Assembly: GCA_947625535.1 (NCBI GenBank)
Contig: CANQOR010000011.1
Location: 1 to 43,611 of the forward strand
Direction: 5' to 3'
DNA length: 43,611 bases
Source of the DNA: an uncultured Bacilli bacterium
GTDB lineage: Bacteria; Bacillota_I; Bacilli_A; RF39; UBA660
The translations under genes and the position numbers were made by a program. This document shows positions 8,208 through 33,407 of the stretch, one piece after another. A model generated the notes under the pieces. The model was not told the origin of the DNA. It made no database searches and saw only the letters and a program-made list of their open reading frames with translations. Position 1 is the stretch's first letter, and the number at the start of each line of letters is the position of its first letter.

Positions 8208-8208
8208 T

Positions 8209-8237
8209 TTGACAAATCAAATTATTGGTAGTAGTAT
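8209..8237 (+). promoter_or_regulatory. Sigma-A promoter of thrS
   Basis: TTGACA (8209-8214), 17-nt spacer, TAGTAT (8232-8237). Predicted start of the leader RNA is about 8244. The -35 lies 2 nt after the previous gene's stop, and there is no terminator between them. Confidence 0.85.
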
Positions 8238-8243
8238 TTAGTT

Positions 8244-8437
8244 AATTCAATGAGGAAGAACATGATTATTAATGATATTACTTAAAGAGAGTTCATGGTT
8301 GGTGGAAATGAATAGAATACTTAATAATTACTATCTTCTGAGAGGTTTAATAAAACCCGGTTAAGGCCGTTATCTAAATTAAGTTAAATAAAGGATGGTA
8401 CCGCATTATTTGCTCCTTGCAAATAATACGGTTTTTT
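8244..8437 (+). promoter_or_regulatory. T-box riboswitch controlling thrS
   Basis: The leader has the T-box parts in order. The Stem I distal region is AGAGAG...TGGTTGGTGGAAATGAA near 8286-8314. A GAAGA/TCTTC pairing closes Stem I. The conserved T-box sequence AAGGATGGTACCGC is at 8391-8404, overlapping a terminator. The specifier codon is most likely ACT (Thr) at 8330-8332, directly above the closing helix and followed by A; a second ACT at 8319-8321 is a weaker candidate. Uncharged tRNA-Thr would bind the T-box bulge and favour the antiterminator, letting RNA polymerase reach thrS. Exact pairings were drawn by eye. Confidence 0.93.
8400..8437 (+). terminator. T-box-controlled terminator before thrS
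   Basis: ACCGCATTATTTGC (8400-8413), loop TCCTT, GCAAATAATACGGT (8419-8432), then a run of T. The 5' arm shares ACCGC with the T-box sequence, so terminator and antiterminator exclude each other. Confidence 0.92.
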
Positions 8438-8462
8438 TATTTAGAAAGAAAGGATGTTTGAG

Positions 8463-10285: not shown

Positions 10286-10313
10286 TACAAGAGAATATGG
10301 GAGTGTGGCAAGT

Positions 10314-13300
10314 ATGAAAATAATGTTAATGGATGCTGCAAAATTAGTTAATTTAGTACTTCCTAATGATGTCTTTGGTAACTATTGGGTTGTTAATGCT
10401 AATAGAGATAATCTAGTTAGTGTACAAGCTGTAGATGGTAATTGGGTGTTAAAAAGCAATAGTGATGTTAAAGTATTTAGAAATGGAGCAGCTGTAGATG
10501 AAACATTACTTGAATATGAAAAATTCTATACTTTAAAAAATATATTACTTAATGAAAGCTATGTTATTTATACTTGTCCTGTATATGATTCTAATGCTTT
10601 ACAATTAAATATTACATTAAATGGTACTAATAGTGCTTTAGTATGGTATGTAGGTAATAATGGAGCTCAAAATGCTGAAACTAATTTTCCTAATATTATT
10701 TCATATGAGCAACCTGGTATAGCTAAAAATCAATTAAAATTAGAATTTAATAATGGAGTTTATGCTGTTACTAATATTAATCCGCGTATTCCAATGTATG
10801 TTAATGGTTTACCATGTGTATCTACTAATTTAAGATATGGAGATACAATTTTTGTTCTAGGTCTTAAAATATCAATAATTAAAGATATATTTTATATAAA
10901 TAATCCAAATAAATTAGTTAAATTTGATTCCCAAGTATTTAATATGCGTATTGCTCCAACATTAGATTTTTCAAAGATTCCAACTGAACCAGATCCAGTT
11001 ATTGAAATGTATAAAAAAGAAGATTACTTCTTAAAACCACCTAGATTTGATGAAAGAATTGAAGAAAAAACTTTTGTTATAGATCCACCACCTGCGGCTC
11101 AAAAACAAGAAGATATGCCGGCTATTTTAACAATGGGTTCAATGTTAATGATGGGTATGAGTTCAATGATGACAGGGGTTATGACTTTAACCAATGTTTT
11201 AAATGGAAGTACACCTTTATCTTCAGCATTACCATCTTTATTAACAGCAGCAGCAATGCTTACTTGTATGCTTGTTTTACCAACTGTTACAAAAATGTAT
11301 AATAAACATAAAAAAGTAGTTTATGAAAGAAAAAGACAAGCTACATATAGTGCTTATGTTCAGAAAAAAAGAGAAGAATTCTTAACAGAAATAAAAAGAG
11401 AACAACAAATATTAATAGAGAAATATATTCCTCTTAAAGATGTTGGAGATATTATTCTTTATAAAAAACGTAATTTATGGGAAAAGAATGTTGATGATTA
11501 TGACTTCTTATCTTTACGTTTAGGTATTGGTTCTATACCACCATATTTTAATGTTAATTATCCAGATGAACATTTCTCTATGGAAGATGAAGATAATTTA
11601 ATGGAATATTTAAGAGTCTTAGAAAAAGAAACTAATGCTTTAGAAAATGTTCCAGTTACTTATTCTTTTGTTAATAAATATATAACAGCTGTAATAGGTC
11701 AAAAAAATGTAACTAATCCTTTCTTAAGAGGTTTATTATTACAAATATTTGCTTATCATGGATATGATTCATTAAAGGTTTGTGTTTTTACTAATAAAGA
11801 AAATGAAAAGTTCTGGGAAGATATTAAAGATTGTCCATATTTCTGGGATGATAATCGTACAATAAGATTCTTTGGAACAAATAGTGATGAAATAAATCAA
11901 ATTAGTTCTTATTTTGAAGAAATGCTTGCTAATGTTAAGGAAGCTAATGAACAAAGAGATGCTGTTAGTGGAGCTGCTAAAGCAACTATTAAATTATCTA
12001 CTAGATATATAATTATTACAGATGATATTGATTTAGTAAGAAATGTTAGTGTTATTAGATCATTAATAGAATCTGTTGAATATATTGGTATCAGTTTAGT
12101 TATCTTTACAGAGAAATTAAATTCTTTACCTAATGAAGTTGAACACTTTATAAGTGTTGATGAACGTACAGGTGGAGTATTTGAAAGAGTATTATCTGAT
12201 AGTAAAAGAATTAATTTTGTACCAGATTTTATGTATGGTTCATTAGAAAAATATACTTATGTTTTATCTAATATTCCAATTGCGTTAAATGGTGGTAAAT
12301 TCCAATTACCAGCTTCTTATTCATTCTTGGAAATGTATAATGTATCAAATGTTAACCAATTGAATGCTTTATCAAGATGGAAAGAAAGTGATCCGATTAA
12401 TTCACTAGCGGCACCAATTGGAATTAATGAATATGGTGATTTATTTAAATTAGACTTACATGAAAAAGCTCATGGACCACATGGCTTAATAGCTGGTATG
12501 ACTGGTTCTGGTAAATCAGAATTCATTATTACATTTATTTTAAGTACAGCAGTTAATTTCCATCCATATGAAGTTCAATTTGTTTTAATCGACTATAAAG
12601 GTGGTGGACTTGCTGGAGCTTTTGAAAATAGAGAAACAGGATTAAGATTACCACATTTAGCTGGTACTATTACAAACTTAGATGTTAGTGAAATTAATCG
12701 TAGTTTAGCTTCATTACAAAGTGAATTAAAACGTCGTCAAGCAGTATTTAATAAAGCAAGAGATAAAGTTGGTGAATCAACAATTGATATTTATAAATAT
12801 CAAAGATTATATCGTAATGGTCAAGTTGATGAACCAGTAGCACACTTATTTATTATTTCCGATGAGTTTGCTGAGTTAAAAGCTCAACAACCAGATTTTA
12901 TGAACGAACTTATTTCAACTGCTCGTATAGGTCGTTCTTTAGGCGTTCACTTAATCTTAGCAACACAAAAACCTAGTGGTGTAGTTAATGATCAAATTTG
13001 GTCAAATGCGAAGTTTAAAGTATGTTTAAAAGTTCAAGATAGATCAGATAGTCAAGAAATGATTAAAAGACCTGATGCAGCTTCTTTAAAAGAAACTGGA
13101 CGTTTCTTCTTACAAGTAGGTTATGATGAATACTTTGCAATGGGTCAATCAGCTTGGACAGGTGCACCTTATTATGAATCTGATGTTCGTAAGAAGAAAG
13201 TAGATAATTCTATTACTTTTGTTGATAATTTAGGAATGCCGATTAAAGTAGTAGAAGATGGACGTAATAGTGTTTCTGGTGTATTAAAAGGTGAAGAATT

Positions 13301-14981
13301 ACCTAATATTATGAAATATTTAGTAGATGTTTCTAAAAAAGAAAATATTAAAGTTAAACAATTATGGTTAAATGCTTTATCACCAATTATTTATATAGAT
13401 GCTTTAAAAGAAAAATATAGTTATAAAAAAGTATCTTGTGATATTAATCCAGTAATTGGTGAATATGATGCCCCTAATTTACAACAACAAGGCTTACTTA
13501 CTATGCCAATTACTAGAGAAGGTAACTGGATAGTTTATGGTATGTCTGATAGTGGTAAAGAAGAAATGATTAATTCATTTGTTTATTCTTGTATTACAAC
13601 ATATTCACCAGCAGAACTTAATCTATATTTATTAGATTTTGGTGGCGAGACATTAAAAATGTATCGTAAAGCTCCACAAGTTGGTGATGTTATTTTACAA
13701 AATGACGTTGATAAAGTTACTAACTTATGGAAAGTTATTAGTGATACTATAGCTAAACGTAAAAAGTTATTTGCTGATTTTGGTGGAGATTATATATCTT
13801 ATTCTAAAGCAACTGGTAAAGTTGTACCTAATATAATAATTATCATTAATGGTTTTGAGTTATATAATGAAAATTTTGGAGATAGTACTTTTGATTTGTT
13901 AGCAACTATTACAAGAGATTGTCAGAAATATGGTGTTTACTTTATTATGACATCTACTACTTCTAATGGTATTAGAAGTAGATTAGCACAATACTTACCA
14001 AATCACTTAGTATTCCAAATGAATGATAAGTATGATTACTCTTCATTATTAGCTAGAACTAAGATTGAACCAGCTGCTGTATCTGGACGTGGTTTAGTTA
14101 AATTAGATGCTGTATTTGAATTCCAAGCAGCTGTACCAACAGAAAAGGAAAATTTAAATACATTTGTCTTAGATAAGATTAATGAGTTATGTAAATTATA
14201 TCCAGAGAGTGCACCTAAGGTTCCTGTATTACCAGAAGTTGTTACAGTTTCTTATTGTTCTGATCAAATGATGGGACTTACTTCAGTACCTGTTGGTGTT
14301 GAAAAAGAATCATTACAAGTTAGAACTCTTGATGTTACTAAGAATACTGTTCATTTAATTACTGGTATGGAATTAAATGAAATTAAAACATTTGGTGAAA
14401 TGTTTATTAGAGAATTAGCTAAGTTAGTTGGCAAGAATTGTTTTGTATTTGACTTGGAAAAGTTATATAAAAATATTTCTGATATTACAACTTATTATGA
14501 TACTAATATTGTTGAAGAATTTAAAAAAGTTGGTAAAACAATATTTGATATGTATACGACATATAAAGATAATGGATTCGATGTCAATGCTTTAAAAGAT
14601 AAAGGTGATATCGTTTGTGTTATTGTTGGAATTGAGAAATTTAAGAACATGATGGGTTCAGAATTTGATGGCGCATACAGCGGATTACTTTCAATGATGA
14701 AAGGAATGCCAAAAGCATATTTTGTTTTAATTGATACTTGTGATAACTTCAAGAAACGTGAATTTGAACCTTGGTATAAAGATACTATTTCTGGTACTAA
14801 AGGTATTTGGGTTGGTAACGGAATGGGTACACAATACACTATTAAGTCAACATTAACTTCACGTGTTTTATCAGCTAAATTAGAGAAAAACTTTGGTTAT
14901 TACGTAGATGGAAATACGACAGTTTTAATTAAAGTAATCTCTGAAGTTGGTGAAGAGGAAGAAGTATATGAAACATTATGA
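10314..14981 (+). CDS. essC: T7SS membrane ATPase EssC (FtsK/SpoIIIE family)
   Basis: Motor and channel component of the Firmicutes type VII secretion system. 1555 aa from ATG 10314, ~10 nt after GGGAG; a GTG at 10305 is in frame but too close to that site. Order of parts: two FHA-like beta domains (residues ~1-95 and ~100-205), two adjacent membrane spans at ~266-290 and ~305-328, a linker domain, then three FtsK-type ATPase domains. The first is intact: Walker A GMTGSGKS at 728-735, Walker B FIISDEF with Asp850/Glu851. The second has GMSDSGKEE at 1076-1084, with the Walker A Ser/Thr replaced by Glu. The third (around ITGMELNEIKTF) has no P-loop lysine. This one-active, two-degenerate arrangement and overall length match Staphylococcus/Bacillus EssC/YukB. 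It has its own promoter and terminator, separate from the substrate cassettes downstream. Confidence 0.95.
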   Translation: MKIMLMDAAKLVNLVLPNDVFGNYWVVNANRDNLVSVQAVDGNWVLKSNSDVKVFRNGAAVDETLLEYEKFYTLKNILLNESYVIYTCPVYDSNALQLNITLNGTNSALVWYVGNNGAQNAETNFPNIISYEQPGIAKNQLKLEFNNGVYAVTNINPRIPMYVNGLPCVSTNLRYGDTIFVLGLKISIIKDIFYINNPNKLVKFDSQVFNMRIAPTLDFSKIPTEPDPVIEMYKKEDYFLKPPRFDERIEEKTFVIDPPPAAQKQEDMPAILTMGSMLMMGMSSMMTGVMTLTNVLNGSTPLSSALPSLLTAAAMLTCMLVLPTVTKMYNKHKKVVYERKRQATYSAYVQKKREEFLTEIKREQQILIEKYIPLKDVGDIILYKKRNLWEKNVDDYDFLSLRLGIGSIPPYFNVNYPDEHFSMEDEDNLMEYLRVLEKETNALENVPVTYSFVNKYITAVIGQKNVTNPFLRGLLLQIFAYHGYDSLKVCVFTNKENEKFWEDIKDCPYFWDDNRTIRFFGTNSDEINQISSYFEEMLANVKEANEQRDAVSGAAKATIKLSTRYIIITDDIDLVRNVSVIRSLIESVEYIGISLVIFTEKLNSLPNEVEHFISVDERTGGVFERVLSDSKRINFVPDFMYGSLEKYTYVLSNIPIALNGGKFQLPASYSFLEMYNVSNVNQLNALSRWKESDPINSLAAPIGINEYGDLFKLDLHEKAHGPHGLIAGMTGSGKSEFIITFILSTAVNFHPYEVQFVLIDYKGGGLAGAFENRETGLRLPHLAGTITNLDVSEINRSLASLQSELKRRQAVFNKARDKVGESTIDIYKYQRLYRNGQVDEPVAHLFIISDEFAELKAQQPDFMNELISTARIGRSLGVHLILATQKPSGVVNDQIWSNAKFKVCLKVQDRSDSQEMIKRPDAASLKETGRFFLQVGYDEYFAMGQSAWTGAPYYESDVRKKKVDNSITFVDNLGMPIKVVEDGRNSVSGVLKGEELPNIMKYLVDVSKKENIKVKQLWLNALSPIIYIDALKEKYSYKKVSCDINPVIGEYDAPNLQQQGLLTMPITREGNWIVYGMSDSGKEEMINSFVYSCITTYSPAELNLYLLDFGGETLKMYRKAPQVGDVILQNDVDKVTNLWKVISDTIAKRKKLFADFGGDYISYSKATGKVVPNIIIIINGFELYNENFGDSTFDLLATITRDCQKYGVYFIMTSTTSNGIRSRLAQYLPNHLVFQMNDKYDYSSLLARTKIEPAAVSGRGLVKLDAVFEFQAAVPTEKENLNTFVLDKINELCKLYPESAPKVPVLPEVVTVSYCSDQMMGLTSVPVGVEKESLQVRTLDVTKNTVHLITGMELNEIKTFGEMFIRELAKLVGKNCFVFDLEKLYKNISDITTYYDTNIVEEFKKVGKTIFDMYTTYKDNGFDVNALKDKGDIVCVIVGIEKFKNMMGSEFDGAYSGLLSMMKGMPKAYFVLIDTCDNFKKREFEPWYKDTISGTKGIWVGNGMGTQYTIKSTLTSRVLSAKLEKNFGYYVDGNTTVLIKVISEVGEEEEVYETL

Positions 14982-14983
14982 TA

Positions 14984-15012
14984 AAAAAGTTAATTAACGT
15001 TAACTTTTTTTT
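14984..15012 (+). terminator. Terminator after essC
   Basis: AAAAAGTTAA (14984-14993), loop TTAACG, TTAACTTTTT (15000-15009), continuing T-run. It begins 3 nt after the essC stop. Confidence 0.85.
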
Positions 15013-15019
15013 CATTTCG

Positions 15020-15048
15020 TTGACTTTACTTTTTTTTTAGAGTATTAT
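15020..15048 (+). promoter_or_regulatory. Sigma-A promoter of T7SS cassette A
   Basis: TTGACT (15020-15025), 17-nt spacer, TATTAT (15043-15048). Predicted start near 15055. It lies directly behind the essC terminator, so cassette A is independently transcribed. Confidence 0.85.
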
Positions 15049-15054
15049 GAGTAT

Positions 15055-15146
15055 ATAAGAGTGTAGTCGATAGTTAGGGGAATTGGTCGGAAATGGTAAG
15101 GCTATCATATATTCTTAAATCTACTTTTAAATAGGGAGGTTTTATT
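15055..15146 (+). promoter_or_regulatory. Leader of cassette A with box shared with cassette B
   Basis: About 90 nt untranslated. AGTTAGGGG at 15072-15080 followed by TTGGT at 15083-15087 recurs at the same distance from the promoter in the cassette B leader. GATAG and CTATC flanking this region could close a stem. The leader ends with the Shine-Dalgarno AGGGAGG for esaB. Confidence 0.45.
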
Positions 15147-15404: not shown

Positions 15405-15417
15405 GGAGGTGGAATTA

Positions 15418-15741
15418 ATGGCTACAGGAGAAGGAGTTGCAGGTGCAGATTTAAACGTAAATCCAGCTGGTTTACAATCATTATCTGAAGAAATGTCTAA
15501 TGCTCAATCAGCATTTGAAGCTGCTATTGAATCTATTGATACTGAAGTTATGAATATTGCAGGTAACGCAATGGGTGCTGATAGTGTTGATTATCAAGCA
15601 TTTGTTCAAAAATACCAAAGTGAAATGAAACCATTAGCAGAAGAAATTTCTGAAACATTGGAAAGCCATGCTTCAAAAGCAGCAACAACTGCAAGTAATG
15701 CTGGCGATACTATTGCAGCAAATCTTAAAGTTATTGGTTAG
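15418..15741 (+). CDS. WXG100-like small helical protein without the Trp (cassette A, position 1)
   Basis: 107 aa from ATG 15418, 5-6 nt after GGAGGTGG; the GTG at 15409 lies inside that site. Predicted as a helix-turn-helix hairpin of WXG100 size: first helix around SLSEEMSNAQSAFEAAIESI, a turn at NAMGADSVDYQAF, second helix EMKPLAEEISETLESHASKA. The turn keeps the Gly and the later Phe of the family but has no Trp; there is no Trp in the whole protein. By position it matches the WXG100 protein that opens cassette B. It is likely a secreted T7SS substrate or a dimer partner of the next gene product, which does contain a Trp. Confidence 0.8.
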   Translation: MATGEGVAGADLNVNPAGLQSLSEEMSNAQSAFEAAIESIDTEVMNIAGNAMGADSVDYQAFVQKYQSEMKPLAEEISETLESHASKAATTASNAGDTIAANLKVIG

Positions 15742-16090: not shown

Positions 16091-16097
16091 TTATTGT

Positions 16098-16160
16098 ACT
16101 GTGTCTTTGACACAGTTCATTATAAGTGAAAGATAGAAATATCTTTTATTTATAATGAAC
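16098..16160 (+). other. Twin intercistronic hairpins, cassette A
   Basis: Hairpin 1: ACTGTGTC (16098-16105), loop TTT, GACACAGT (16109-16116). Hairpin 2: a 21-bp stem with two G·T pairs, arms 16115-16135 and 16140-16160, closed by a GAAA tetraloop. The two share bases 16115-16116. There is no U-tract, so neither is a normal terminator. They sit between the second and third genes, exactly where cassette B has the same two-hairpin arrangement. A likely role is processing, stability or partial attenuation that makes the upstream small proteins more abundant; this is inference. Confidence 0.85.
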
Positions 16161-16184
16161 TTGAAGTATAAGGAGGAATAAATT

Positions 16185-16568
16185 ATGTCATTACAATCGT
16201 TGGTTACAGCTCAAGCAGATATGGGTGGAGGAAGTGGATATAGTGATGACGTTTATAGCTTTGCTGTAGATGCTTCTCAAATAGAAGATTTGTGTGAATT
16301 TTTAACATCAAAAGCAGATGATTTGCAAACAGCCTTTGATGGTATTTTTAGTGAGATAGTTGCTATGGAAAGTGATGCGTGGTCCGGAACTTCTTACGAA
16401 ACTTTTAGAACTAAATGTTATGAATATAAACCTGCTATGGATGCTTTAGTTGCTATATTTAGGGCATATGTATCTCTTTATCAAAAAGAAGTAACTGATG
16501 CTAAACAAATTTTAGATGAAACGTTAGATAATGCTTTTGCAAATGCTTCTGATGATAGAGAATACTAA
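16185..16568 (+). CDS. WXG100 protein (cassette A, position 3)
   Basis: 127 aa from ATG 16185, preceded by AAGGAGGA. A clear WXG motif, W66-S-G68, sits between two long helices, in the pattern DAWSGTSYETF; the second helix runs through VAIFRAYVSLYQKEVTDAKQ. It is longer than a classic 100-aa EsxA because of a ~25-residue Gly/Ser-rich N-terminal stretch and an acidic tail. It aligns by eye with the N-terminal ~100 residues of the 423-aa protein in the same slot of cassette B: ADDLQ..F..IFSEI..ME.D.W.G..Y..F against ADKFD..V.DLYTEI..MG...WVG.DY.MF. Predicted to be secreted through EssC. Confidence 0.88.
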   Translation: MSLQSLVTAQADMGGGSGYSDDVYSFAVDASQIEDLCEFLTSKADDLQTAFDGIFSEIVAMESDAWSGTSYETFRTKCYEYKPAMDALVAIFRAYVSLYQKEVTDAKQILDETLDNAFANASDDREY

Positions 16569-20840: not shown

Positions 20841-21218
20841 ATGAGAGAAAAATATTTACCAATTGGAACAGTAGTTTTATTAAAGGGTGGAAAGAAAAGA
20901 GCGATGATTACAGGATTCTGTTCAGTAGCTCAAGAAAACCAAGAAAAAATCTATGACTATAGTGGTTGTGTTTATCCAGAAGGATACTTAAGTTCTAATC
21001 AAGTTTGTTTATTTGATCATGAACAAATCGAAAAAATATTCTTCTTAGGATTCGAAGACGAAGAAGAAAAAGTATTTAAAGACAAATTAAATAAAATTGT
21101 TGCTTCTATTGAAGATGAAAATAAAAATACTACTGCTAATGTTCAAGAAGCAGCTGTAGCTCAAAATAACAGTGCTACTCCTGTAACACCTTTTACACCA
21201 TTAGCTGAAGAAAATTAG
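20841..21218 (+). CDS. DUF4176 protein (cassette A, position 7)
   Basis: 125 aa. The first ~75 residues (KYLPIGTVVLLKGGKKRAMI, then DYSGCVYPEG and LFDHEQIEKIFFLGFEDE) match what I know as DUF4176, a small domain repeatedly found in Firmicutes T7SS loci. The fold looks like a compact beta barrel; function unknown. The last ~45 residues are a low-complexity Asn/Ala/Thr tail. Two further copies lie in cassette B and align throughout the domain. ATG 20841 follows GAGGAGGA. It is the last gene of cassette A; a terminator begins just after its stop. Confidence 0.88.
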   Translation: MREKYLPIGTVVLLKGGKKRAMITGFCSVAQENQEKIYDYSGCVYPEGYLSSNQVCLFDHEQIEKIFFLGFEDEEEKVFKDKLNKIVASIEDENKNTTANVQEAAVAQNNSATPVTPFTPLAEEN

Positions 21219-21220
21219 TA

Positions 21221-21248
21221 AAAATGGCCATTATTGGTCATTTTTTTT
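21221..21248 (+). terminator. Terminator ending cassette A
   Basis: AAAATGGCCA (21221-21230), loop TTAT, TGGTCATTTT (21235-21244, one G·T), with T-run to 21248. Confidence 0.87.
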
Positions 21249-21267
21249 CAAATTTACAAAATCGCTG

Positions 21268-21296
21268 TTGATTAATTGAAAAAATTTTTATATAAT
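21268..21296 (+). promoter_or_regulatory. Sigma-A promoter of T7SS cassette B
   Basis: TTGATT (21268-21273), 17-nt spacer, TATAAT (21291-21296). Predicted start near 21303. Confidence 0.87.
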
Positions 21297-21404: not shown

Positions 21405-21707
21405 ATGGGTGCATTAAAAATGGAAAGTAGTGAATTACGTAGTTTAGGTAACAACATTCTTTCTAATGCTGGTAGCTTTGATTCTTTAATTACTAGTTTC
21501 AAAACTGCTTATGAAGCAATTACTGCTGCTGGAACTTGGGATGGTGAAGATTCAAACAAGTTCAATGAAGCTGCAAGTAATTTCAGAGCTGATCTAGAAA
21601 AAGCTAGTACTATGGTTAGAGAAGTTGGTACTGACTTAGTTACTACTGCTAACGATTATGATGAAACACTATCAGGAGTTTCTTCTAACATCGGTTCTAT
21701 GTTATAA
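21405..21707 (+). CDS. WXG100 protein, EsxA-like (cassette B, position 1)
   Basis: 100 aa, the canonical family length. ATG 21405 has GGAGGTG 7 nt upstream; the same frame is open back to 21276, but that stretch is leader RNA. Two helices flank W45-D-G47 (AGTWDGEDSNKFNEAASNF), with the expected Phe after the turn. The second helix carries EKASTMVREVGTDLVTTAND. A small secreted T7SS substrate, likely acting as a homodimer or with the next gene product. It is the most canonical WXG100 in the window and therefore the best candidate for an EsxA equivalent needed for secretion, although it is not next to essC. Confidence 0.93.
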   Translation: MGALKMESSELRSLGNNILSNAGSFDSLITSFKTAYEAITAAGTWDGEDSNKFNEAASNFRADLEKASTMVREVGTDLVTTANDYDETLSGVSSNIGSML

Positions 21708-21737
21708 GAATCTAATAAATAAGAGAGGTGAATAAGA

Positions 21738-22049
21738 ATGAATACATTTGATTATGCTGCATTTAATGAACAATATGAAATTTTAAATAAGATTATTGGT
21801 GGAGCTGAAACTGATCCTTCTACAATAAATGGTGTTGTAGCTGCAAGTAATCGTTCAATATCAGAAGGACTAGAATATGCTTCAGATAGTCAATGGGCAA
21901 ATTCTAAATTAAATGAATGGAATGATTTAATGCCTAATCTAAAAACTCAACTTGATAATTTAGCAACTATGTTGCAACAAGCTAAAGCTGCTGCAGATGC
22001 TTATTATCAATTTGAACAAGCTCATACTGGAATTAAAGCTGGTAATTAA
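21738..22049 (+). CDS. Small helical T7SS-associated protein (cassette B, position 2)
   Basis: 103 aa, ATG 21738 behind GAGAGGTGA. It aligns by eye with the first ~105 residues of the 468-aa protein two genes downstream: both begin FDY, share a KI(I/T)G...DP(S/E)(T/S)I(N/A)GV segment and finish the domain with YYQFE/YQQFE. It is therefore a stand-alone version of the domain that heads that larger protein. Trp residues in DSQWANSKLNEW replace a W-x-G turn. Probably a WXG100-superfamily partner or chaperone. A pair of hairpins starts 10 nt after its stop. Confidence 0.8.
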   Translation: MNTFDYAAFNEQYEILNKIIGGAETDPSTINGVVAASNRSISEGLEYASDSQWANSKLNEWNDLMPNLKTQLDNLATMLQQAKAAADAYYQFEQAHTGIKAGN

Positions 22050-22059
22050 TAAAAATATA

Positions 22060-22116
22060 TGTACTACGATAAGTAGTACATTGTAAGTTGCTAAGGTATT
22101 AGCGATTTACAATGTA
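22060..22116 (+). other. Twin intercistronic hairpins, cassette B
   Basis: Hairpin 1: TGTACTAC (22060-22067), loop GATAA, GTAGTACA (22073-22080), 8 bp. Hairpin 2: arms 22078-22094 and 22099-22115, 17 bp with two G·T pairs plus a possible extra T-A pair, closed by GGTA. The hairpins share about 3 bases and have no U-tract. Same position, same two-part form and nearly the same distances to flanking stop and start codons as the pair in cassette A, with unrelated sequence. Confidence 0.85.
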
Positions 22117-22143
22117 TTATTTATACAGAAAGATGGTGTTGAA

Positions 22144-23415
22144 ATGGCAGGAAGTTGGGATTTTACAGCTGATAGCGATATACAAAGGACTCTTGCAAGT
22201 AATTTAAATACAGATGCGGATAAGTTTGATACGAGAGTAGGAGATTTATATACTGAAATTAATTCTATGGGATCAAACGGTTATTGGGTTGGCGAAGATT
22301 ATGATATGTTTGTAACAGGAACTGAAGGATACAAAAGTGCTCTTCAGGATTTATCTGATGGAATTAGAATGTTTGCTACTCATTTTGAAAAAGTTGCTGA
22401 AGGAACTGATACATTAGCTACAGAACTAATAGATATAATTATGAATGCTACTGGTACTGGTGGCGGAAATGGTGGAAACGGAAACGGTGGAAACGGAAAC
22501 AATGGCAATAACGGAAATAATGGCAACAATGGTAATAATGGAAACAATGGTAATAACGGCAACAATGGTAATAATGGAAACAATGGTAACAACGGTAATA
22601 ACGGCAACAATGGCAATAATGGTAACAATGGTAACAATGGTAACAACGGTAGTACAGGAGTAACAACTTTAAATAGTGGTGATTCTGTAAAAGTAAACGG
22701 TAAAGATTACAATTACTATGGTTCAGTTAGAAAAGCTAATGGTGCTATTGTAAATATGTTTGCTGATAATATTGGTCACTTATATTATCAAGATGAAAGT
22801 GGAAACGTAGTTAGTGTTAAAGCTTCTTATGTAAATAGTAATGGCCAAACAGTTACAAGTGATGCAACAATTAGTGATTTAGGTAGACAGATACCAATGG
22901 AAGCTCATGGTGCTAGATATAATGCTCCAGTTCTATTGAAAGTTGGAGATGACATTACATTATCTAATGATAATAATATAGCATCTTCAGTAACATTAAA
23001 TGGTGTTTCTAATGCTCCAGTATCTAATGGTACTAATGGAGGTGCTTATCTTCAAAATGATGTTTCTTATGAAACAGATGGTTCTGTTTTAGATTCGTAT
23101 GGTACTGGTCTTGATGGTGGAAGTGTAAATGGTGATACTTTAGTTAAAGCAATGGGAATGGATTATTTCCAACGTTATGCTCAAGAAGGAACAGTTATTC
23201 AAGTACCACAAGGAACTAAATTACAATGGGATCCAGCTTGGAATGTCACTGGTTATGACTTTGATGCAAGCAAAGGACCTATATATTTAAAATGGGATCC
23301 AAGTGCTGCTGATGGCAAGGGTGCTTATCATTTGGTTGATGAATATGGAAATGTAAGATTAAATAGAGATTTTACCTTAGATGGTTTTAATAATGACGCT
23401 GGTCATTGGAAATAG
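22144..23415 (+). CDS. WXG100 domain fused via Asn-Gly repeats to a C-terminal module (cassette B, position 3)
   Basis: 423 aa. Residues ~1-100 form a WXG100 domain with W48-V-G50 (GYWVGEDYDMF), paralogous to the 127-aa protein in cassette A. Residues ~106-169 are an almost pure Asn-Asn-Gly tract encoded by an in-frame 9-bp-type repeat, presumably a flexible spacer. Residues ~179-246 contain a module (GDSVKVNGKDYNYYG...GHLYYQDESGNVVSVKASYV) that recurs near the C-terminus of the next protein. The last ~170 residues (strand-rich, with FQRYAQEGTVIQVPQGTKLQ and many Asp/Gly) resemble the outline of a small toxin or extracellular enzyme domain (it ends LDGFNNDAGHWK), but I cannot name it. ATG 22144 has only a weak site (AGATGGTG). 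Confidence 0.8.
   Translation: MAGSWDFTADSDIQRTLASNLNTDADKFDTRVGDLYTEINSMGSNGYWVGEDYDMFVTGTEGYKSALQDLSDGIRMFATHFEKVAEGTDTLATELIDIIMNATGTGGGNGGNGNGGNGNNGNNGNNGNNGNNGNNGNNGNNGNNGNNGNNGNNGNNGNNGNNGNNGNNGSTGVTTLNSGDSVKVNGKDYNYYGSVRKANGAIVNMFADNIGHLYYQDESGNVVSVKASYVNSNGQTVTSDATISDLGRQIPMEAHGARYNAPVLLKVGDDITLSNDNNIASSVTLNGVSNAPVSNGTNGGAYLQNDVSYETDGSVLDSYGTGLDGGSVNGDTLVKAMGMDYFQRYAQEGTVIQVPQGTKLQWDPAWNVTGYDFDASKGPIYLKWDPSAADGKGAYHLVDEYGNVRLNRDFTLDGFNNDAGHWK
22459..22650 (+). repeat. Tandem 9-bp-type repeat encoding Asn-Asn-Gly
   Basis: About 190 bp of GGNAAC/T AAC/T units (for example GGTAACAAT, GGCAATAAC) in frame within the WXG fusion gene. Synonymous third-base changes break perfect identity. 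Copy-number change would keep the frame and alter only spacer length. Confidence 0.93.
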
Positions 23416-23445
23416 ATATTTATCTTTTTGAGAGGAAGATTATAG

Positions 23446-24852
23446 ATGGCGGAAAGAGTATTTGATTATCAAAATATTTCACAAGTATATAATAATATGC
23501 AAAAAATCACTGGTAATGAAGGAGATCCTGAATCTATTGCTGGTGTATTAACAAAAGCAGATAAAGATTATCATGATGTAGTTAGTGTTTGTGATGAAGC
23601 TTTATATGGTGATTTAGCAAATCAATTAATGTTGGATTGGGAAAATACCGCATCTAGCTTTCCTAATTTTGTTAATAATTTTAATAATTGGGCAACTTTG
23701 GTTGCACAAAGTGCAGGTCAATATCAACAATTTGAACAGGATGTTCAAGGATTTAGATCTAGTAATCCTTTGGGATCTGCTAGTAATGGTTTAAAAAGTA
23801 ATTATATAGATACTTCAATATATGCTAATGCACTTACAGTAGATCAATTAGATGATTTAGCATCATATGCTGAATTCCATCAATTGACTGGTGCAACTTA
23901 TGTAGATACTGGAATGATATCATATGCTAAGAAGAAAAAAGTTGCAAATATTGTAGATACAGTTCTTACAGTTGGAGCTGCAGCTGTAACGACTTTTAGT
24001 GCATTTAAATATATTAAACAGCTTAAAAATATGGAATCTTTAGGACATTCAATATCTAGACTTTCTTCTGCAGGAAGTAACGGTCGTGGTAAAGCAACTG
24101 TTCAATTTAAAGGTGTTCCTAAAAATGATCTTACACAATTTAGGAGAGGATTTGGACTTGCAGGAAAAAACGCTACTGCTGCTGCTGATAATTTGTTTGC
24201 TAATAATAAATTCTTTAGTCGCTTTGCAAATACAAAGTTTGCTAATTTCGTTACTTCAAAAGCTGGTACTTTGGGTAAAGTTTCCTATTTTACTAAAGCT
24301 TTAGCAACCAATTCTAGTAGTGGAGCAGCTAGAAAAATACTGGTACAATCTCTTAAAAATGCATCTGCTTCTCCTGGTATACTATGGGCAACTGGTGCAA
24401 CAGTATTATCGCCTGTTGCTAGAAAATTAGAAGGATTATCTTCATGGTCAACTTATTCGTTTGACTATTATGGAAGCGGAGGTTCTAACGGCTCTGTTGT
24501 AATGGGGGATGAAGTTACTATTAATAATCAACCATATTATTATATTGCTCATTCTACTGCTGGTACTGATTTATATAGTGATGATAATGGAAATTTATTC
24601 TATCAAAATGGTAATGGACAGTTAGTTAATGCATCATTCGTTGATGCTTCTGGAAAAAGTGTTAATGCTACTTTAGACAATGTGGATGATACTACAGTTA
24701 TATATGCTGGTGCTGAAAACATGGGTGCGATGGGAGACTTAGATGCATATAAAGACTCTCCAAATTCCGATGAAAATTATACAGAATATTATGATAATCT
24801 ATCTTCAAATTTTGATAGTTTAATGAATGAAACTGCAACAGCAAGTAATTAA
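23446..24852 (+). CDS. T7SS substrate candidate with shared N- and C-terminal modules (cassette B, position 4)
   Basis: 468 aa. Residues 1-105 are the helical domain with DLANQLMLDWENTASSFPNF and FNNW, shared with the 479-aa protein of cassette A and with the 103-aa protein two genes upstream. A short hydrophobic stretch (NIVDTVLTVGAAAVTTFSAF, ~168-188) could insert into a membrane. A basic, Gly/Ser-rich middle follows (~200-330). Residues ~353-415 carry the same module as the preceding gene product (GDEVTINNQPYYYI...GNLFYQNGNGQLVNASFV). The C-terminus is acidic. No catalytic motif is recognised. ATG 23446 follows GAGAGGAAG. Confidence 0.75.
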   Translation: MAERVFDYQNISQVYNNMQKITGNEGDPESIAGVLTKADKDYHDVVSVCDEALYGDLANQLMLDWENTASSFPNFVNNFNNWATLVAQSAGQYQQFEQDVQGFRSSNPLGSASNGLKSNYIDTSIYANALTVDQLDDLASYAEFHQLTGATYVDTGMISYAKKKKVANIVDTVLTVGAAAVTTFSAFKYIKQLKNMESLGHSISRLSSAGSNGRGKATVQFKGVPKNDLTQFRRGFGLAGKNATAAADNLFANNKFFSRFANTKFANFVTSKAGTLGKVSYFTKALATNSSSGAARKILVQSLKNASASPGILWATGATVLSPVARKLEGLSSWSTYSFDYYGSGGSNGSVVMGDEVTINNQPYYYIAHSTAGTDLYSDDNGNLFYQNGNGQLVNASFVDASGKSVNATLDNVDDTTVIYAGAENMGAMGDLDAYKDSPNSDENYTEYYDNLSSNFDSLMNETATASN

Positions 24853-27601: not shown

Positions 27602-28012
27602 ATGAATAAAGAACTTTTACCTATAGGTACGGTTGTTTTACTTGAAGGTGGTACTAAAAAGGTTATGATTTGTGGATATTCATCAAAAGCAAAAGATGAA
27701 GACAAAGTATATGATTATAATGGTTGTGTATTCCCTGAAGGATTTTTAAATAATACATTTTGTTTATTTGATAAAAAACAAATTCAAGATGTTTGTTATA
27801 TGGGGTATATAGATAATGATTATAATAAACAAGTTGATAAGATATTATCTACTAATTTATCTTCTGCTGGTAATGGATTAACTTATGAATCTAATTCTAG
27901 TAGTAATGCTCCAACTAAACGTGGTAGGACACCTAAAGCTCCTACTAATCCAATGTCTAAATCTGAAATGCTTAGTAAATATGGTGTTACTAAGATGTCT
28001 AGGGATGATTAA
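27602..28012 (+). CDS. DUF4176 protein (cassette B, position 7)
   Basis: 136 aa. The DUF4176 domain spans residues ~3-75 (LLPIGTVVLLEGGTKKVMIC, DYNGCVFPEG, LFDKKQIQDVCYMGY). The remaining ~60 residues are a Ser/Asn-rich linker and a basic tail (TKRGRTPKAPTNPMSKSEML). It aligns with the copies at 20841 and 28024. A GGTGAGAA site precedes ATG 27602. Eleven nucleotides separate its stop from the next DUF4176 gene. Confidence 0.88.
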   Translation: MNKELLPIGTVVLLEGGTKKVMICGYSSKAKDEDKVYDYNGCVFPEGFLNNTFCLFDKKQIQDVCYMGYIDNDYNKQVDKILSTNLSSAGNGLTYESNSSSNAPTKRGRTPKAPTNPMSKSEMLSKYGVTKMSRDD

Positions 28013-32457: not shown

Positions 32458-32483
32458 TAAAAGGACAAAATTGTTAATAGGGG

Positions 32484-32512
32484 TTGACAAACGGAATTAA
32501 TTAGTATATAAT
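32484..32512 (+). promoter_or_regulatory. Consensus sigma-A promoter of infC-rpmI-rplT
   Basis: TTGACA (32484-32489), 17-nt spacer, TATAAT (32507-32512): perfect match in both hexamers and spacing. Predicted start near 32519. Confidence 0.93.
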
Positions 32513-32518
32513 TCATTT

Positions 32519-32666
32519 TGTTATTGAAAAGAAAGCGATGTATCCACATCCACCTGATTGTAGTGAGTTATGATAGGTAAAGAGCTGAATAAAATTTTAT
32601 TTTATTTTGTTTTGATGGGTGGATACTAGGTGTTCGCCCTTTTTAATTGTGTGGAGGTGCTATTAT
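32519..32666 (+). promoter_or_regulatory. Structured leader of infC operon (L20-leader-like attenuator)
   Basis: Two exclusive pairings are visible. GTATCCAC (32540-32547) can pair with GTGGATAC (32619-32626). Alternatively GGGTG (32617-32621) pairs with CGCCC (32635-32639), followed by TTTTT, which is a terminator. The shared segment means only one can form. In Bacillus this operon is repressed by L20 binding its leader and favouring termination; position and gene content fit that, but the L20-binding structure itself was not identified. Confidence 0.7.
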
Positions 32667-33191
32667 TTGGCAAAGGATAAAAACGACATGCCTATCAATG
32701 AACAAATTAGAGTGGCAGAATTAATGGTAATTGGTCCAAATGGAGAACAAATGGGTGTTAAAAAATTAGAAGATGCTTTAACACTAGCTAACTATGCAGG
32801 TTTAGATTTAGTACTTATGAGTGGTAATTCTGTACCAGCAGTAGGTAAAATTATGGACTATAATAAGTATCGTTATGAGAAACAAAAGAAACTTAAGGAA
32901 TCACAAAAGAAACAAAGAGAAAGCAATAAAGATGTTAAAGAATATCAATTAAGTCCTAATATTGATATTCATGACTTTAATACTCGTAAAAAGAATGCTT
33001 ATGATTATCTAGTTAAAGGACATAAAATTAAAGTTTCTATTAGATTTAAAGGTAGAAGAATAGATCGCCCTGAATTAGGTAGAGATGTTATGCTTCGTTT
33101 TGCTGATGAATTAAGTGATGTTTCAATAATTGAGTCACAACCTAAATTAGAAGGTCGTACAATGATTATGCTATTAGCACCAAAAAAATAA
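32667..33191 (+). CDS. infC: Translation initiation factor IF-3
   Basis: Binds 30S and enforces correct start-site selection. 174 aa from TTG 32667, with GGAGGTG about 7 nt upstream; the longer open frame from 32619 runs back into the leader's terminator. The N-domain begins INEQIRVAELMVIGPNGEQM, a basic linker helix follows (KYRYEKQKKLKESQKKQR), and the C-domain has HKIKVSIRFKGRR and the terminal MLLAPKK. A rare start codon is a hallmark of infC, since IF-3 discriminates against non-AUG starts and so limits its own synthesis. It is first in the operon with rpmI and rplT. Confidence 0.96.
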   Translation: MAKDKNDMPINEQIRVAELMVIGPNGEQMGVKKLEDALTLANYAGLDLVLMSGNSVPAVGKIMDYNKYRYEKQKKLKESQKKQRESNKDVKEYQLSPNIDIHDFNTRKKNAYDYLVKGHKIKVSIRFKGRRIDRPELGRDVMLRFADELSDVSIIESQPKLEGRTMIMLLAPKK

Positions 33192-33212
33192 AAAAGAAAG
33201 AGGAAGTAGATT

Positions 33213-33407
33213 ATGGGAAAAAGTAAACAAAAAACACATAAAGCATCTAGTAAAGTTCTAAAAGCTAAAAAGAATGGTCAATTAGTTTATAAAAAATCAA
33301 ATGGTAATCATATAACTGGAAAAGATACAGCTAAAGCTGTAAGACAAAGAAGAAATAAGGGAGTATTAAGTAAAGGAGATACTAGACGTCTAAAAGACTT
33401 TATCTAG
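33213..33407 (+). CDS. rpmI: 50S ribosomal protein L35
   Basis: 64 aa, very basic, with the L35 pattern MGKSKQKTHKASSKVLKA and the C-terminal RRLKDFI. It lies between infC and rplT as in most Bacillota. ATG 33213 follows AGAGGAAG. The usual internal KRH segment is here YKKSNGNHITG. Confidence 0.95.
   Translation: MGKSKQKTHKASSKVLKAKKNGQLVYKKSNGNHITGKDTAKAVRQRRNKGVLSKGDTRRLKDFI

Follow-up and report, generated by a model that had tools for sequence, protein, structure and literature searches.

Stoichiometry set by RNA is known from few operons. In the Rhodobacter puf operon, a hairpin lies behind a small gene pair needed in excess (pufBA) and ahead of its larger partners (pufLMX) on one transcript, and this hairpin shields the 3′ end of pufBA; when it is deleted, the ratio of LH1 to reaction centre is altered (PMC10253847). 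In the cip-cel operon of Clostridium (Ruminiclostridium) cellulolyticum, the type known as selective RNA processing and stabilisation (SRPS), intergenic stem-loops increase the abundance of the upstream transcript, the more so the more stable they are, as reporters confirm (PMC4423207); they stand at the 3′ end of the upstream gene, the more abundant one, those tested fall around -14 to -24 kcal/mol, and the stem-loops, most without a U-run, act as cleavage signals as well as protectors (PMC4423207, PMC10311766). In E. coli, differential-decay structures shape many operons, and in the malE-malF type a 3′ structure shields the upstream cistron of a polycistronic mRNA (PMC5927463). A fourth comparison is with the RNase III sites of polycistronic mRNAs, which are near-perfect intercistronic helices of 20 or more bp. 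Helices of 21-26 bp are of the size that RNase III accepts; malE-malF uses REP repeats, which are scattered over the genome.

The element described here is a pair of hairpins, P2 and P3, between genes of a type VIIb secretion (T7SSb) locus. It has the puf arrangement, although in another phylum and with other genes, and the effect proven by deletion in puf is here a proposal; we know of no conserved strand exchange in puf hairpins. The cip-cel loops, likewise mostly without a U-run, are those of one operon in a few clostridia, whereas here one homologous, covarying element with a fixed two-hairpin layout occurs in 15 genera. REP is found genome-wide; in the element's own genome, covariance model R2 (Table 1) finds only the two T7SS copies at E <= 0.01. 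P3 is a candidate RNase III site, and a gene for the enzyme is present in the genome.

The type VII secretion locus

The window, the whole stretch of DNA analysed (43,611 nucleotides), is one entire contig (C11) of an uncultured Bacilli genome that is 88% complete, 1.8 Mb in size and low in GC. Close relatives are MAGs placed in Bacillota, Bacilli incertae sedis, under the names uncultured Bacilli and "Candidatus Coprovivens". The locus encodes EssC and EsaB, followed by cassettes that combine small WXG100-like proteins with large ones (Table 1). Downstream of EssC come a terminator, a gene whose product we take, from gene order and general knowledge, to be EsaB/YukD-like, slots 1 and 2, the twin hairpin, and slots 3 and 4 (cassette A); cassette B follows the same plan. 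The slot 1 and slot 2 products of cassette A are each predicted, with moderate confidence (pLDDT 75 and 65, respectively), to form a two-helix hairpin. LXG effectors have WXG100-like targeting partners (PMC9600955, PMC10653861), which the small genes of the slots resemble, but no LXG domain was found and they are not filed as LXG partners.

Gene order suggests that the slots of a cassette lie on a single transcription unit; neither a terminator nor a plus-strand promoter match is listed in the gap between slots 2 and 3. At the start of cassette B (21219-21296) there are a terminator-like hairpin and a promoter-like match (21268-21296), so that the cassettes may be transcribed separately. The region from the essC terminator to esaB (14982-15146) likewise holds a promoter-like match (15020-15048), along with a leader that is long and structured.

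Several other features of the genome were observed. Cassette A ends with a DUF4176 protein (Pfam match, 20841-21218), and a small protein that looks similar by eye follows cassette B (27602-28012). The same genome encodes a second EssC (G000:C21:7792-11325), with no twin hairpin in the part of its downstream region that was fetched (L144). The thrS leader (8208-8453) ends in GGATGGTACCGC and a terminator, and is T-box-like, with no Rfam family at cut-off. At 32458-33400, a structured leader, a 190-codon GTG gene and an L35-like small ORF resemble, by eye, an infC-rpmI-rplT leader.

Table 1. Features of the locus in window coordinates. R1 and R2 are covariance models built from five and 29 copies of the element, respectively.
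Feature	Position	Strand	Evidence and remarks
EssC, T7SSb ATPase	10305-14981	+	TIGR03928, 975.7 bits
EsaB/YukD-like (presumed), 85 aa	15147-15404	+	Heads cassette A; kept in genus
Cassette A slot 1, WXG100-like	15409-15741	+	Pfam WXG100, 22.0 bits, below cut-off
Cassette A slot 2, 105 aa	15773-16090	+	No family match
Twin hairpin, copy A (cassette A, slots 2/3)	16094-16176	+	Fold z -7.3; R1 94.9 bits, R2 77.7 bits (both models trained on copy A)
P2, copy A, 8 bp, loop UUU	16098-16116 (arms 16098-16105 / 16109-16116)	+	Fold; family covariation
P3, copy A, 22 bp with two G-U pairs, GAAA loop 16136-16139	16114-16161 (arms 16114-16135 / 16140-16161)	+	Fold; family covariation
Cassette A slot 3, 127 aa, WXG100-like	16185-16568	+	Pfam, below cut-off; first gene 3′ of the element
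Cassette A slot 4, large protein, 479 aa	16586-18025	+	
Cassette B	21405-24852		
Cassette B slot 1, WXG100	21405-21707	+	Above Pfam cut-off
Cassette B slot 2	21738-22049	+	
Twin hairpin, copy B (cassette B)	22055-22124	+	R1 35.6 bits, E 3e-5 (copy B outside its training set); R2 60.5 bits (copy B in its training set)
P2, copy B, 9 bp, loop 22068-22072	22059-22081 (arms 22059-22067 / 22073-22081)	+	Fold
P3, copy B, long form, 26 bp	22069-22124 (arms 22069-22094 / 22099-22124)	+	Excludes P2
P3, copy B, with P2 formed	arms 22079-22094 / 22099-22114		
Cassette B slot 3, 423 aa	22144-23415	+	

Structure of the two copies

The twin hairpin between slots 2 and 3 of cassette A is real, and lies where the sequence-only reading had placed it, 7 nt 3′ of the slot 2 stop (16090) and without a U-tract. 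That reading's 21 bp and two shared bases are the same structure counted one pair shorter; by the present count P3 shares three bases with P2 (16114-16116) and ends 23 nt 5′ of the slot 3 ATG (16185). The 94-nt gap has a folding energy of -33.2 kcal/mol, compared with -12.9 ± 2.8 in dinucleotide shuffles (z -7.3, 0 of 200), and the fold is therefore not one of chance; the P3 stretch alone gives z -9.6. On both strands of the 43.6 kb, the longest uninterrupted stems are the P3 helices of copies A and B, the next being 16 bp.

Copy B, also without a U-run, keeps the form, order and distances of copy A, as had been claimed. Its sequence had been called different; at 58% identity, and with a match to a model that had not been trained on it, copy B is instead a diverged homologue. 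Because its long P3 absorbs the whole 3′ arm of P2, the two helices compete far more in copy B than in copy A, where both hairpins largely coexist.

Distribution among relatives

Among 15 genomes of the genus, five matches to slot 2 were found. The divergent one in G012 (25% identity) has the same twin hairpin in the same spot, and so do G011, G004 and G005. With R1, the element is found in 12 of the 15 genomes, and in these the order EssC, EsaB, slot 1, slot 2, element, slot 3 recurs wherever the locus is readable that far. Among 291 genomes of the family, R1 finds the element in 21 and R2 in 31, over 15 genera; the R2 count is not independent of training, since part of these sequences was used for it, while operon position was not used. 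The strong model matches that were opened lie behind a pair of genes of ~100 codons and just ahead of the next Shine-Dalgarno sequence, and 44 of 46 copies have an open frame of 90-134 codons upstream and lie after its stop. EssC is present in 29 of the 31 genomes with the element and in 113 of the 260 others (Fisher p 3.5e-8).

Absence from a close relative with the same genes, which the sequence-only reading had named as a refutation, was seen once: G013 (L162, reverse strand, about 2380-2420) has the complete gene order, with slots 2 and 3 separated by 15 nt and no hairpin. This is a natural loss, which could serve for a comparison of expression; as the gene order is kept without it, the element is useful, not indispensable. 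In G002 and G007 no such cassette was found behind EsaB in the DNA fetched, and no element. Most EssC-positive genomes of the family also have no detectable copy which, with G013, argues that the element is not required for the T7SS. Five T7SS loci missed by the model (L126, L129, L135, L148, and L156) have twin hairpins of other sequence in a comparable intercistronic place; of the EssC neighbourhoods without a model match, about 34 were opened, and most of these have none.

Outside the family, no model match was found in the order. Four genomes of the class score, all at intercistronic positions with the P2/P3 layout. Three of these matches (L117, L118, and L119, around 1500-1580), from three species of one genus (f21/g271), lie behind a gene of ~490 codons. 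The fourth (L120 1500-1575, reverse strand), in the complete genome G502 of another family, lies between ilvC and leuC, as named from their translations; its E-value of 6e-4 is unimpressive alone, given about 400 genomes searched. These matches are suggestive, but possibly convergent, since no second case was found in the family of G502. A sample of the phylum added nothing. Weak model matches inside or beside unrelated genes (L032-L036, L066, and L067) were rejected as chance. Being palindromic, the element also scores on the antisense strand (seen at L065 in G172). A second copy in G269 (L053 2718-2778, reverse strand) is not immediately preceded by the end of a long open frame, and may mark a slot pair that has decayed.

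In Rfam 15, no family matches the window at the gathering cut-off; there are sub-threshold look-alikes only, mostly microRNA precursors. No paper describing the element was found in the literature, although microbiome-wide catalogues of RNA motifs such as PMC8040213 could list it. The twin hairpin is real, a conserved cis-RNA that belongs to no Rfam 15 family.

Selection on the RNA structure

RNA identity within the genus is about 75%, compared with protein identities of 13-25% between divergent slot pairs. In an alignment of 29 copies, P2 pairs form in 92% of cells and P3 pairs in 99%, with both-sided changes in 21 of 26 pairs (11.9 in shuffles); the base of P3, whose pairing excludes the base of P2, is kept in 80% of the cells of nine pairs, and almost always where columns 31-35 meet 76-80. 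Covariation was assessed over 46 copies against a self-written, tree-aware null that follows the R-scape idea and uses the tree of the element itself, not a species tree. Significant pairs (two-set E < 0.05) make up 5 of 8 in P2, 10 of 15 in the top of P3, and 2 of 6 in its base. When all columns were tested against all, four pairs reached E < 0.05, including a co-change between S1 (the first P2 arm) and S3, in columns 16 and 70, which ties for the strongest among 3403 column pairs and is expected if both pair with column 32.

With stems defined symmetrically, G-U pairs outnumber A-C pairs by 80 to 9 (p 2e-15), which points to selection on the sense transcript and not on the DNA duplex, with a possible contribution from strand-specific mutation bias. 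Selection on RNA structure had been proposed for this gap, with covariation across orthologous intergenic regions as the check; both that covariation and the G-U excess support it.

A strand exchange between mutually exclusive pairings is also conserved. The base of the P3 5′ arm has two possible partners in all 46 copies, the P2 arm and the P3 3′ arm, and at least five of the eight positions of this shared arm can pair with both of them in every copy (mean 6.3; in shuffles, mean 3.3 and highest of 1000, 3.8). Independent triple changes are few (none to two branches per triple in the tree-aware analysis of 46 copies), so that this line of evidence for the exchange comes from few events. Predicted energies of P2 and long P3 are within 3 kcal/mol of each other in 21 of the 46 copies, but far apart in the others; the average difference is 1.9 kcal/mol in favour of long P3, and the spread is 5.4. 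The suggestion that the abutting helices may be a switch gains from the conservation of both exclusive pairings with compensatory changes, but is weakened by copy A, which truly shares only three bases.

Possible functions

The element most likely sets the amount of the two small upstream proteins relative to the large downstream ones. The explanation that we favour, with somewhat better than even confidence, is that it is an intercistronic RNA of the puf/cip-cel type that processes or stabilises the mRNA, so that the two small proteins are made in excess. After transcription, P2 and the long perfect P3 would fold right behind the slot 2 stop, where they would block 3′-to-5′ exonucleases coming from downstream, mark a cleavage site, or both. 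The cassette transcript would thus be split into a slot 1-2 segment and a segment from slot 3 onward, with different fates: the upstream mRNA of the two small WXG100-like proteins, its 3′ end protected, would accumulate over the downstream mRNA. Exchange of the shared segment probably sets the folding while the ribosome ending slot 2 covers the first arm. We infer protection or cleavage, the excess and the part of the ribosome; position, stability, the missing U-run and RNA-level selection fit a stabilising or processing role, which is why it is favoured. The association with EssC also speaks for it, as does the recurrence of the layout, in other sequence, at further T7SS loci (L126, L129, L135 and L148) and between ilvC and leuC.

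As in the SRPS type, a stable hairpin stands behind the upstream cistron, inside what gene order suggests is one unit, and it has no U-run and is not an intrinsic terminator. For RNase III, a substrate has about 20 or more bp in one helix, and P3 mostly spans 20-29 positions; with a P3 of 21-26 bp and the gene present, the enzyme is a plausible player. The lack of the element in G013 and in most EssC-positive genomes of the family counts against the stabilising or processing role, and so do two published results. LXG partner proteins in the systems studied form defined pre-secretion complexes with the effector (PMC9600955, PMC10653861), an arrangement for which slots 1 and 2 need not be in excess. 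The double stem-loop of M. smegmatis esxB did not stabilise a reporter (PMC11728522), although it lies at the 5′ end.

Translational control is the best placed of the alternatives, unlikely as it is. Here P2/P3 would be an insulator or coupling switch, controlling re-initiation at slot 3 or the accessibility of its start: a ribosome on the slot 2 stop would cover S1, P2 would not form, long P3 would, and the Shine-Dalgarno spacing would be altered. Over the 46 copies the first P2 pair lies at a median of 6.5 nt 3′ of the upstream stop, inside the footprint of a terminating ribosome, and P3 ends at a median of 9.5 nt ahead of the Shine-Dalgarno sequence; the conserved exclusive pairing also fits. 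However, the Shine-Dalgarno sequence is outside P2/P3 in the copies inspected. A closing helix reaching towards it, P1 (5′ UUGUACU with AGUAUAA), is seen when copy A and several members of the genus are folded, but is no better, and no longer, than in shuffled downstream sequence, and was dropped.

Since the first P2 pair sits where a terminating ribosome would be, gating of the P2/P3 exchange by the ribosome is a natural addition to the processing or stabilising role. In the resulting switch, which would be of a new class but is rather improbable, heavy translation of slot 2 would lead to long P3, and so to processing or protection, and light translation to P2.

A regulated switch, sensing unsecreted slot 1/2 protein or some other binder through the exchange, is more doubtful still. 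Both alternatives are conserved, with energies often close, and the co-change of columns 16 and 70 is as strong as any; but there is no aptamer-like conserved unpaired core, the loops vary freely in length and sequence, long P3 is favoured on average, and the overlap in copy A is slight. The two mutually exclusive conserved pairings of a riboswitch or attenuator are present, while no expression platform was seen in the copies inspected, neither a U-run nor a Shine-Dalgarno sequence within P2/P3. The switch readings are ranked below a stabiliser because the energies of the two forms vary so widely and the copy A hairpins largely coexist.

Transcription attenuation or partial termination, lowering expression from slot 3 onward, is highly improbable. 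The hairpin is strong and mid-operon, but U residues after P3 average 2.2 in 8 nt and exceed four in only one of the 46 copies (G095), and a terminator scan of the plus strand finds nothing at copy A, whereas terminators elsewhere in the window have clear U-runs; an intrinsic terminator was rejected on these grounds. Least credible of all is a DNA palindrome for recombination, integration or protein binding that exchanges slot 1-2 and slot 3-4 modules, for although the element persists where the genes around it turn over, its strand and operon place are fixed, and the G-U excess (part of which a strand-specific mutation bias could mimic) counts against it because a DNA palindrome gains nothing from G-T; an inverted-repeat site, which would tolerate G-T and A-C equally, was rejected.

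Implications

The class of mechanism is known; the homologous spread and the conserved strand exchange were new to us. As far as could be found, this would be the first conserved cis-RNA described for type VII secretion cassettes. It sets slots 1 and 2 apart, as one unit, from the genes downstream, and its conserved strand exchange makes the choice between protector and switch testable with reporters. If the translation-gated switch were true, the cassettes would tune the stoichiometry of small partner to effector through a fold that persists while the genes are swapped. Because the RNA is kept across genera while the surrounding proteins turn over, this homologous element offers a comparative, testable system for RNA-set operon stoichiometry.
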